In this document: one piece after another, positions 29,382-32,731 of the stretch | Layout of the letters: each line of letters begins with the position of its first letter | Position numbering within the stretch: the first letter of the stretch is position 1 | Assembly (NCBI GenBank): GCA_028285405.1 | Contig: JANQPH010000041.1 | Coordinates: forward strand, 62,001 to 126,000 | Direction: 5' to 3' | Source of the DNA: Thermoleophilia bacterium | Lineage (GTDB): Bacteria > Actinomycetota > Thermoleophilia > Miltoncostaeales > Miltoncostaeaceae | DNA: 64,000 nucleotides | Program-made: the position numbers and the translations under genes | The notes under the pieces: model-generated | What the model was told of the DNA's origin: nothing | What the model saw: the letters and a program-made list of their open reading frames with translations, nothing else | Database searches by the model: none

Positions 29382-30791
29382 TCAGGCCGGGGGGCTCTCG
29401 CCGAGGAGCTCCTCGATCGCGGCCTCGCGATCGCTGCCGAACCGGGCGATCTCGCGTGCGCCGCGATCGTCCCGTCCGGTCGAGAACGCGACGACGAAGC
29501 GCGATCTGCGCTTGATGGGGACGGTGGCGTCGAGCCCGAGCTTTGCGCCTACGCCCTCGTCGGTCGACGGGTCGATCGGGGATCCCAGTGTGTTCGAGGC
29601 CACGACGAGGTCCCGGTCCGCCTGGAATCGGGTCGTCACGGCCCAGTGGACCTCCTCCTCGTCGTCGATGTCGACGTCGTCGTCGACCACCACGGCCTGC
29701 TTGATGTCGTTGTGCAGGCCGAGCAGGGTGAGCAGGCAGTTCTTGGCGGCGCCGGGATGGTGTGGACCGATCTTGGCGATGGCCAGATACCGGCAGCTCC
29801 CACCAAGCGGCAGGCGCAGGTCGAGCGCCTCGGGAAACACCACCTTCAGACGCTGGAGCAGGGTGGACTCGCGCATGACCCCGCCGAGGAGCAGGTGCTC
29901 GGCGCTGTAGGAGAGGATCGTCCGGTAGAGCGGGTTGCGGCGGGTCGTGACCGCGTCGACCTCGATGTACGGCCGCAGTGCCCGTGGCTGGTAGTAGCGG
30001 CTGAACTCGCCGAAGGGCCCCTCGAGCGCCCGCCGATAGGGCCGGATCCGTCCCTCGATGGTGATCTCGCAGTTGGCTGGAACGCGAACGTCACTCGTGA
30101 TCGCCTTGACCACCTCGAGCGGACGTCCGTGGAGCGCGCCGGCGATCTCGAGCTCCTGCTGACCCCGCCCGGCGACGGCCTGCGAGGACAGCTCCGTGAG
30201 GGGGTCGGCTCCGATCGAGATCGTGACCGGCAGCTCGCGCCCCTGGGACTCCGCCCGAGAGAAGATCGCGGCGAGGTCGCGCGGCAGCATCAGGATCCCG
30301 AGGCGGTTCCTCGAGAAGAGCTGGAGCCGCTGGATGGAGAGGTTCTGCGTTCCGGTGTCGAGGTCGATCGCTCCGACCAGGCCGGAGTCGATGAACGGCC
30401 CGGCATCTCGCTCGGAGCGGGTCGGCACCGGCAGGGTCGTCAAGTCGACGTCCGGGCCCTCGATCACCACCTCCCGGGTCGGGGCCGATCCAGTGTCCAC
30501 CTCGTGCCACGGGATCGGCGCCTCGATCGTCTCGGCGACCCTGGCGAGGAGCTCGTGGGGCTCGACACCGGCCGCTTCGGCGATCCAACGGCGGTTCCCG
30601 AGCACCCCGGCGACCATCGGGACGTCGAAGCCGGCCGGCTTGGGGAAGATCACCGCATGATCGCCCTGAAATGCCGACACGACCTCGCCGACCTCGAACT
30701 TCGGCGACACGCCGTCCTGCAGCACCATCAGCCGCCGGGTCTCGTGGAGGTGGCGAAGCCACGCCCTGAGCGATTCGACGTGTGCGAGCAC
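29382..30791 (-). CDS. UbiD family (prenylated-FMN) decarboxylase
   Basis: 469 residues. UbiD signatures include LPVPTRSERDAGPFID, RLQLFSRNRLGILM, EGPFGEFSRYYQP with active-site Glu, and HPGAAKN near the C-terminus. It would decarboxylate or carboxylate an aromatic or unsaturated acid with prenylated FMN; no ubiX is seen here. GTG 30791 lies 8 bases after the stop of the upstream small gene, without a clear ribosome-binding site. Last gene after the ThDP decarboxylase and the NHLP-like gene. Confidence 0.85.
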   Translation of the reverse strand: MLAHVESLRAWLRHLHETRRLMVLQDGVSPKFEVGEVVSAFQGDHAVIFPKPAGFDVPMVAGVLGNRRWIAEAAGVEPHELLARVAETIEAPIPWHEVDTGSAPTREVVIEGPDVDLTTLPVPTRSERDAGPFIDSGLVGAIDLDTGTQNLSIQRLQLFSRNRLGILMLPRDLAAIFSRAESQGRELPVTISIGADPLTELSSQAVAGRGQQELEIAGALHGRPLEVVKAITSDVRVPANCEITIEGRIRPYRRALEGPFGEFSRYYQPRALRPYIEVDAVTTRRNPLYRTILSYSAEHLLLGGVMRESTLLQRLKVVFPEALDLRLPLGGSCRYLAIAKIGPHHPGAAKNCLLTLLGLHNDIKQAVVVDDDVDIDDEEEVHWAVTTRFQADRDLVVASNTLGSPIDPSTDEGVGAKLGLDATVPIKRRSRFVVAFSTGRDDRGAREIARFGSDREAAIEELLGESPPA

Positions 30792-30799
30792 GAGCCCGG

Positions 30800-31078
30800 C
30801 TAGGCGCAGTCCGCGTGGTGCGGGCGGTCTCCGGACAGGGCGGGCGGCTCGACATCGGTCGCAGAGGCCGGATCGATCGGGATCCCGATGAAGATCTTTC
30901 CGTCGGGCCCCACGTCGACCTCGATCTCGCCCTCCTCGGTGAGCGGCACCCCCGCCGCGACGAGTTGCGCGCGCGGATCCGCGTCGAACGCATCCCGCAT
31001 CGCCGGATCCCCCTCGATGACGGCGAGCGCGCGCATCAGCGCGTCGCGGATCTCCTCGATCGGCACGGCGGTCGCCAC
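30800..31078 (-). CDS. NHLP-like small protein between ThDP enzyme and UbiD
   Basis: 92 residues from GTG 31078, acidic. The middle (DPAMRDAFDADPRAQLVAAG, then PLTEEGEIEV, then DGKIFIGIP) closely resembles the nitrile-hydratase-leader-peptide fold (NHLP), in which two DPxxR-type helices precede a short beta pair. NHLP domains occur as RiPP leaders and as nitrile hydratase subunit parts. No RiPP modification enzyme is near, and the C-terminal 20 residues hold one Cys. It may be an accessory subunit. Coupled closely to both neighbours (3 and 8 bases). Confidence 0.7.
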   Translation of the reverse strand: MATAVPIEEIRDALMRALAVIEGDPAMRDAFDADPRAQLVAAGVPLTEEGEIEVDVGPDGKIFIGIPIDPASATDVEPPALSGDRPHHADCA

Positions 31079-31081
31079 GCG

Positions 31082-32731
31082 TCAGTCCTTTGCCTTCATC
31101 AGCTCGGCGAGGCCCTTGCCGAGCTCGCGCAGCGGACGCGGGTAGTCGTGGACGTCGAGCGTCATCGAGATGATCCAGGCCCGATCCGGCTCGGCCCTGG
31201 CCGCCTCGAGCGCGGCGACGAGGCCCGCCCTCGTGTCGACGCTGGCACCCGACGCGCCGACCACGTCGCCGACGGCCGCGTAGTTCCACTCGGCGATGTC
31301 GTTGAACGGACCGTCCTGGATCGCGCGCTCGGTCGTGTAACCGCCGTTGTCGAGCACCAGCACGATCGGGGCCAGCCCGTACCGAATGGCGGTGGACAGG
31401 TCGAAGCCGGTCATCTGGAACGAGCCATCGCCGACGAGCACGACCGGCCGGCCGGTGCCCCGGGCGAGGCCCGCTCCGGCCGCCGCCGGGACGGCGAATC
31501 CCATGCCCACGTAGTACCGCGCGATGTGCATCTGACCGGGCGCGGCCAGACGCACGTCCATCATGAGGTGGGCGGCGGCGCCGACGTCCACCGACACGAT
31601 GTCGGTCGGCTCGAGATGGTCGTCGAGGACGGCCGCGATCTGATCCGTCGTGAGCGGTCCCGAGTCCCCCGGATCGGTGGCGTCCCAGCAGTGGGGGAGG
31701 TTCTCCGGGCGCGGACGCTGGTGCAGCTCGGCCGAGGCGAGCCCGCCGAACGCGGCATCGAAGGACACGCCCTCGTAGGTGCGATGCCCCACGCGGAGCT
31801 CGTGCGTGTCGACGCTGACGATGCGCTCGGGCGGGATGTGCACCGAGAACGCGCCGAGGTTGATGTCGTTCTGCGCGACGTCGAGGGCGATCAGGCAGTC
31901 GGCGTCCTCGACGAGCGCCTTCAGCCGCTGGTCGCTGGTCGTGAGCCCCGAGTAGACGCCCATCACGAGGTCGTGCGTCTCGGGGACCGACCCCTTGCCC
32001 ATCACGCTCTCGACGATGGGTGCCCCGATCCGCTCGGCCAGCTCGACGACCGCCTCGCCAGCCCGCCGCCTGAGCACCCCGACCCCGCTCCAGATCACCG
32101 GGCGTTCGGCCGAGTCGATCGTCGCGACGAGGTCCGAGATGGCGGCTGCCTCGCGGTCCGCGTGTCCGGGGGCCCGCTGGCCGTGCTCGTGGTGCCGCCA
32201 GACCTCCTCGGGCCGCACGTCGAACTGATCCCGCGGGACCTCGATGAAGACCGGGCGCAGCGACCGCTGACAGAGATCGAGGGCCGCGTCGATCCGCTCG
32301 AACGCCTCTTCGGGATCATCCAGCAGCACGGTCTGCGCGGTGATCTGCGCCGCCATCTGACGGGGGGTGCCCATGTCCTCGGTCGGCATGTGGTGGATCT
32401 GGCGGCCGTCCCGCTCGCCGAGCCCCGGGCCCCCACCGATCAGGACGACGGGGACGTGCTCCGCGTTGGCCCCGCCGAGCGCGGCCAGCGGCGCGAGCGT
32501 GCCCACCCCGAAGGTGACCGCCGCGACCCCGAGGCCCTGCTCGCGCGCGTACCCGTCGGCCGCGTAGGTCGCCGTCTCCTCGCGCGTGCTGTTCACCATC
32601 GTCATCCCTCGCCCCGCGGCGATCTGGAAGAAGCGGAGGATGAAGTCGCCGGGAACGCCGAAGACGTGACGCACGCCCCGGTCCTTCAGCGCATCGACCA
32701 GGTACTCACCGATGCTCGGGTTCTCGCTCAC
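31082..32731 (-). CDS. ThDP-dependent 2-oxoacid decarboxylase (PDC/IPDC-like)
   Basis: 549 residues. Glu about 51 (TREETATYAADGYAR) activates thiamine diphosphate. His113-His114 in QIHHMPTED are the paired His of pyruvate/indolepyruvate/phenylpyruvate decarboxylases. The Mg-ThDP motif is GDGSFQMTGFD...LDNGGYTTER. Its product would be an aldehyde. The exact keto acid is unknown; co-transcription with a UbiD decarboxylase suggests aromatic acid metabolism, which is inference. GTG 32731, 33 bases after truA. Confidence 0.87.
   Translation of the reverse strand: MSENPSIGEYLVDALKDRGVRHVFGVPGDFILRFFQIAAGRGMTMVNSTREETATYAADGYAREQGLGVAAVTFGVGTLAPLAALGGANAEHVPVVLIGGGPGLGERDGRQIHHMPTEDMGTPRQMAAQITAQTVLLDDPEEAFERIDAALDLCQRSLRPVFIEVPRDQFDVRPEEVWRHHEHGQRAPGHADREAAAISDLVATIDSAERPVIWSGVGVLRRRAGEAVVELAERIGAPIVESVMGKGSVPETHDLVMGVYSGLTTSDQRLKALVEDADCLIALDVAQNDINLGAFSVHIPPERIVSVDTHELRVGHRTYEGVSFDAAFGGLASAELHQRPRPENLPHCWDATDPGDSGPLTTDQIAAVLDDHLEPTDIVSVDVGAAAHLMMDVRLAAPGQMHIARYYVGMGFAVPAAAGAGLARGTGRPVVLVGDGSFQMTGFDLSTAIRYGLAPIVLVLDNGGYTTERAIQDGPFNDIAEWNYAAVGDVVGASGASVDTRAGLVAALEAARAEPDRAWIISMTLDVHDYPRPLRELGKGLAELMKAKD

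Follow-up and report, generated by a model that had tools for sequence, protein, structure and literature searches.

A Small Protein of the Nitrile Hydratase Leader Peptide Clan Encoded beside an HmfF-Like UbiD Decarboxylase in Miltoncostaeaceae

RESULTS

The window, by which we mean the whole stretch of 64,000 nucleotides analyzed here, consists mostly of ribosomal-protein operons. Between its truA and surE genes lie three closely packed genes, for a thiamine diphosphate (ThDP)-dependent decarboxylase, a small protein related to nitrile hydratase leader peptides (NHLP) and a UbiD-family decarboxylase (Table 1). Only 3 nt separate the stop codon of the ThDP gene from the NHLP gene, which is followed after 8 nt by the GTG codon of the UbiD gene. 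The GC content of this cassette is 0.706 versus 0.708 for the window, so that composition gives no sign of a recent foreign origin.

Table 1. Features of the NHLP-UbiD locus and the evidence for each
Feature	Position in window	Strand	Evidence
UbiD-family decarboxylase, HmfF branch, E-R-E triad, LPRD for LPRH	29382..30791	minus	Pfam/NCBIfam; 6h6v HmfF, E 5.7e-108; alignment
C-terminal tail (residues 74-92), conserved, TDVEPPALSGDRPHHADCA; disorder predicted; Gly-Gly absent	30803..30859	minus	Ortholog alignment; pLDDT about 46-52
NHLP-clan small protein, 92 aa, GTG start, TAG stop	30800..31078	minus	ORF; ortholog L034:1531-1860; NCBIfam; hhalign
NHLP-like folded domain, residues 7-66, predicted three helices and beta hairpin	30881..31060	minus	AF2 pLDDT mostly 73-88; Foldseek and VIA-align to 8tb1, 9cjx
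ThDP-dependent 2-keto acid decarboxylase, phenylpyruvate/indolepyruvate type	31082..32731	minus	Pfam/NCBIfam; alignment; adjacency in this genome only

The gene for the small protein is confirmed as a real gene and not a chance ORF. Its translation contains all three of the segments on which a first-pass annotation had based an NHLP assignment (DPAMRDAF, DPRAQLV and GVPLTEEGEIEV), and its codon-position bias is of the coding type (GC3 minus GC2 = 0.42). A single ortholog was found, in frame and in another genus, in the Miltoncostaeaceae MAG CSMAG_691 (contig JAUVQP010000121.1), which is 73% complete and is referred to below as G002, the window genome being G000. The two proteins share 49% identity, with 44 residues identical over 92 aligned codons, and conservation is higher at the first two codon positions (0.64 and 0.65) than at the third (0.52). 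A search of plasmids for homologues of the small protein returned none at E 1, and a contig search of other genomes with the same query gave no match.

Resemblance to the NHLP family, suspected from the motifs, was upheld by more sensitive comparisons. The window protein alone yields suggestive, sub-threshold matches to NCBIfam models (NF038399, E 0.033; TIGR03793, E 0.13), and the ortholog matches TIGR03793 at E 2e-7 over profile positions 9-71 of 77 and NF038399 at E 1.2e-4. As the pair scores below the curated TIGR03793 cut-off of 50.9 bits, membership is in the NHLP clan and not in the curated family. When the class was scanned with a profile built from the two sequences, the next-best matches after the pair itself were genuine NHLP precursors, which score 60-75 bits against TIGR03793 and several of which end in ELxxVxGG; hhalign aligned the pair to such precursors with 97.5% probability over 79 columns. 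The DP-x-x-x-L-x-x-x-G motif spacing is also shared with TIGR03793 leaders. An AF2 model (pLDDT 73) predicts three helices and two strands forming a beta hairpin, followed by a disordered tail, which is the arrangement of NHLP leader domains such as MprE7 (8tb1) and DprE2 (9cjx). Indeed, the structural comparison put these two proteusin leaders on top: Foldseek ranked 8tb1 first (probability 0.90 but E 0.44), and VIA-align placed 8tb1 (Z 6.1) and 9cjx (Z 5.1) ahead of the borosin precursor SonA (Z 3.4). These moderate Z values carry weight in that the two leading chains are both NHLP-type leaders, in agreement with the sequence evidence; nitrile hydratase alpha is missing from the VIA-align list, which excludes nothing. 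Judged from profiles and the predicted model together, the similarity is beyond chance and the small protein is a clan member.

The class contains further proteins of this kind. The window genome encodes a 101-aa NHLP-clan protein without a Gly-Gly motif (G000:C32:63957-64139, minus strand; L096:1423-1728; TIGR03793, E 1.2e-11), the gene for which lies between a VOC/glyoxalase gene and argB, and an 87-aa Os1348/Frankia_peptide-like protein (G000:C37:200686-200766, minus strand; L097:1339-1602; E 1.7e-7) the gene for which immediately follows a glycosyltransferase-like gene. Elsewhere in the class, one genome (L006; G042:C256) has three clustered NHLP precursor genes that score above the family cut-off.

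Haft and colleagues characterize NHLP precursors by a Gly-Gly motif for cleavage, by a core that is hypervariable and by linkage to export or modification genes (PMC2887384). The pair described here differs from such leaders in each respect. Neither ortholog has a Gly-Gly leader-cleavage motif where the domain ends. The ortholog tail, TDVELPGEPNERPHHLDCG, aligns with that of the window protein, TDVEPPALSGDRPHHADCA, in the common pattern TDVE-P...(D/E)RPHHxDC, and the final residues are conserved, not hypervariable. The earlier remark that no RiPP enzyme lies nearby also stood, in that no YcaO, LanM, radical SAM, peptidase or peptide transporter gene was recognized in the window gene calls, the far flanks being judged by gene-call starts and not by a full domain scan. 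Nor were RiPP modification or export genes recognized beside the ortholog, the neighbors of which are, as we read their sequences, a TMEM175-like and a glutamine-synthetase-like gene. The absence of Gly-Gly, the conserved tail end and the lack of recognized RiPP genes therefore make this a case of clan homology, read from sequence, rather than of a proven RiPP precursor.

The UbiD protein is full length, and its catalytic triad is intact (R155, E257 and E262 are invariant in the alignment). Its closest solved structure is 6h6v, HmfF of Pelotomaculum, identified as PtHmfF (PMC8988006), with AnInD next at E 5.8e-53. By sequence the protein belongs to the HmfF (furan-2,5-dicarboxylate decarboxylase) branch. 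It shares with HmfF an EHLLLGG..RE segment but departs from it in having LPRD for LPRH, PTR for PTH and a different C-terminal end. The same holds for both NHLP-linked UbiDs when they are compared with four other HmfF-type relatives: LPRD replaces LPRH, PTRSE replaces PT(H/L)xE or PVHHE, IDSG replaces I(T/S)AG, and the C-terminal end differs. The histidine of LPRH, His191 in Fdc1, presumably coordinates the prFMN metal. A ubiX gene is present elsewhere in the window genome, near a second UbiD gene and cytochrome-like genes, so prFMN could be made for the enzyme.

The association between the NHLP and UbiD genes is not confined to the window. The ortholog also lies directly upstream of a UbiD gene (L034:1873-3288; 65% identity to the window UbiD), so that both of the NHLP orthologs precede ubiD and the gene pair is conserved in two genera of Miltoncostaeaceae. 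In the class as sampled here (399 genomes), orthologs of the UbiD (E up to 1e-70) and of the NHLP protein were confined to these two genomes, which were also the only carriers of the UbiD among all 42 genomes sampled from the family. A contig search of other genomes with the UbiD pair recovered the G002 ortholog and an Alicyclobacillus UbiD without a small gene, and nothing more; at the phylum level, a search for the UbiD with a strict cut-off (E 1e-110) matched the window alone. No such small gene adjoins the HmfF-type loci of Alicyclobacillus, Dinoroseobacter, Paraburkholderia or Bosea. In the last three, ubiX, aldehyde dehydrogenase or molybdoenzyme genes are present and there is no annotated NHLP gene.

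The third gene is linked less firmly. Its product, with three TPP domains (Pfam), an HH motif and a GDG...N ThDP site, aligns to 2nxw and 2vbf with HH and is, on sequence criteria, a PDC/IPDC-type decarboxylase. Orthologs in relatives do not lie beside an NHLP gene (64% identity in G013; 53-58% in family genus g9, where ABC-exporter-like and MFS-like genes flank them and an NHLP ORF is lacking), and no match to the ThDP enzyme was found in G002, at 73% completeness. Hence, of the first-pass proposal that the small protein is coupled to two decarboxylases, the UbiD link is kept in G002 and the ThDP link is limited to the window genome; the survey for the three-gene set in other genomes did not recover the trio, and a fixed ThDP-NHLP-UbiD set was rejected. 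The truA and surE genes are directly adjacent in three relatives (L075, L079 and L085), and the relatives carry nothing or other genes at the site occupied by the three genes in the window genome. As surE directly follows truA in relatives, it appears that the three genes were inserted at the junction in the window lineage, perhaps together; this site may have received insertions more than once. One relative (G008; L077:708-1501) has there two small genes resembling a DUF1778-type antitoxin and a GNAT toxin.

DISCUSSION

Our results suggest a role for the 92-residue protein beside the UbiD enzyme. By analogy with other UbiD systems, we attach about an even chance to its being an accessory subunit, that is, an allosteric activator or cofactor-loading helper, of the adjoining HmfF-like UbiD. 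This interpretation stems from gene order and precedent, from which we infer the physical contact, the activation of UbiD and the role of the tail. We envisage the NHLP domain docked on the surface of UbiD, with the flexible, conserved tail (TDVE-P...RPHHxDC) extending in the direction of the active site or of its metal/prFMN site. The ThDP enzyme would probably act at a different step of this local pathway, and would do so in the window genome alone.

The precedent is that UbiD enzymes use small partners without mutual sequence similarity, namely VdcD, PpcGamma and LpdD (PMC8379154, PMC10865409), which makes activation by a small protein plausible. VdcD, a zinc ribbon, forms an integral part of its enzyme and activates it allosterically, with a proline-rich tail lying at the interface close to the active site; however, deletion of this tail causes little loss of activity (PMC8379154), so that a role for the tail of the NHLP protein is not to be assumed. 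Like VdcD/ShdD, the small subunit of the UbiD-type vanillate decarboxylase VdcC, the small protein is encoded beside UbiD, and it also has a conserved tail, as does the VdcCD interface near the active site. VdcD itself has two CxxC motifs and no sequence similarity to the small protein, and a VdcD-like identity was ruled out: the small protein has a single Cys and no CxxC motifs, and its tails cannot be aligned with VdcD tails (one of the VdcD queries, that of B. subtilis, was an approximate sequence serving as a search seed only). A read-through fusion model of the ortholog and its UbiD, with TAG read as Q, had a pLDDT of 39.8 and was unusable. Against an accessory role, the NHLP proteins described to date are components of nitrile hydratase or precursors of RiPPs; moreover, there are two examples only, from one family, and the HmfF-type loci inspected in other bacteria have no small partner gene. 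Shared descent is able to explain a linkage seen in two cases from one family, which limits its weight.

Since small proteins of the NHLP clan are mostly RiPP precursors (PMC2887384), the chief alternative is that the protein might instead be a peptide substrate, a precursor or scaffold with an RPHHxDC tail modified by adjoining or distant enzymes. A structured leader followed by a disordered tail, as predicted by AF2 and matched by Foldseek, is the typical proteusin layout, and NHLP-Burk precursors likewise are without Gly-Gly and may have a terminal Cys (PMC2887384). The missing Gly-Gly motif in both orthologs, the conservation of the tail end and the lack of maturation or export genes recognized in the window gene calls nevertheless make this explanation unlikely. 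Should the tail be modified by UbiD itself, the leader-like domain would deliver RPHHxDC to the prFMN-dependent decarboxylase, which would represent new RiPP or peptide-scaffold chemistry; this we consider very improbable. No action of UbiD or PDC-type enzymes on peptides is known, and a literature search for such activity found none.

It is also conceivable, at a low probability, that the protein stays outside the active complex and presents a small-molecule substrate or prFMN to UbiD as a carrier or cofactor chaperone. LpdD, which is likewise linked with the UbiD system, binds reduced prFMN (prFMNH2) and as a chaperone assists UbiD activation (PMC10865409), and the HHxDC tail could bind metal. 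However, LpdD is a dimeric Pba3/4-like beta-sandwich, a fold unrelated to that of NHLP, its gene in L. plantarum lies with a UbiX homolog and not beside a UbiD homolog, and no flavin-binding features were seen in the small protein. We regard an accidental neighborhood as comparably improbable. The two further NHLP-clan small proteins of this genome, which have neither recognized RiPP genes nor UbiD alongside, may have functions of their own, and just two NHLP-UbiD cases are known; yet the tight pair is kept in two genera despite different surrounding genes, and both genes are missing from all other genomes of the class that were sampled.

An accessory subunit of UbiD thus remains our preferred reading. 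The components are already known, and a full-text search of open papers did not find the NHLP-UbiD pairing; what would be new is a candidate small UbiD accessory protein built on the NHLP fold. UbiD enzymes are sought-after catalysts of decarboxylation and carboxylation, some of which resist isolation as active enzymes. VdcD and LpdD, the accessory proteins characterized so far, are unrelated in fold, and an NHLP-fold partner would add another solution. If the interpretation is correct, the nitrile hydratase leader fold would be used beyond nitrile hydratase and RiPP leaders, and NHLP matches in genome mining would hence not always represent RiPP precursors.
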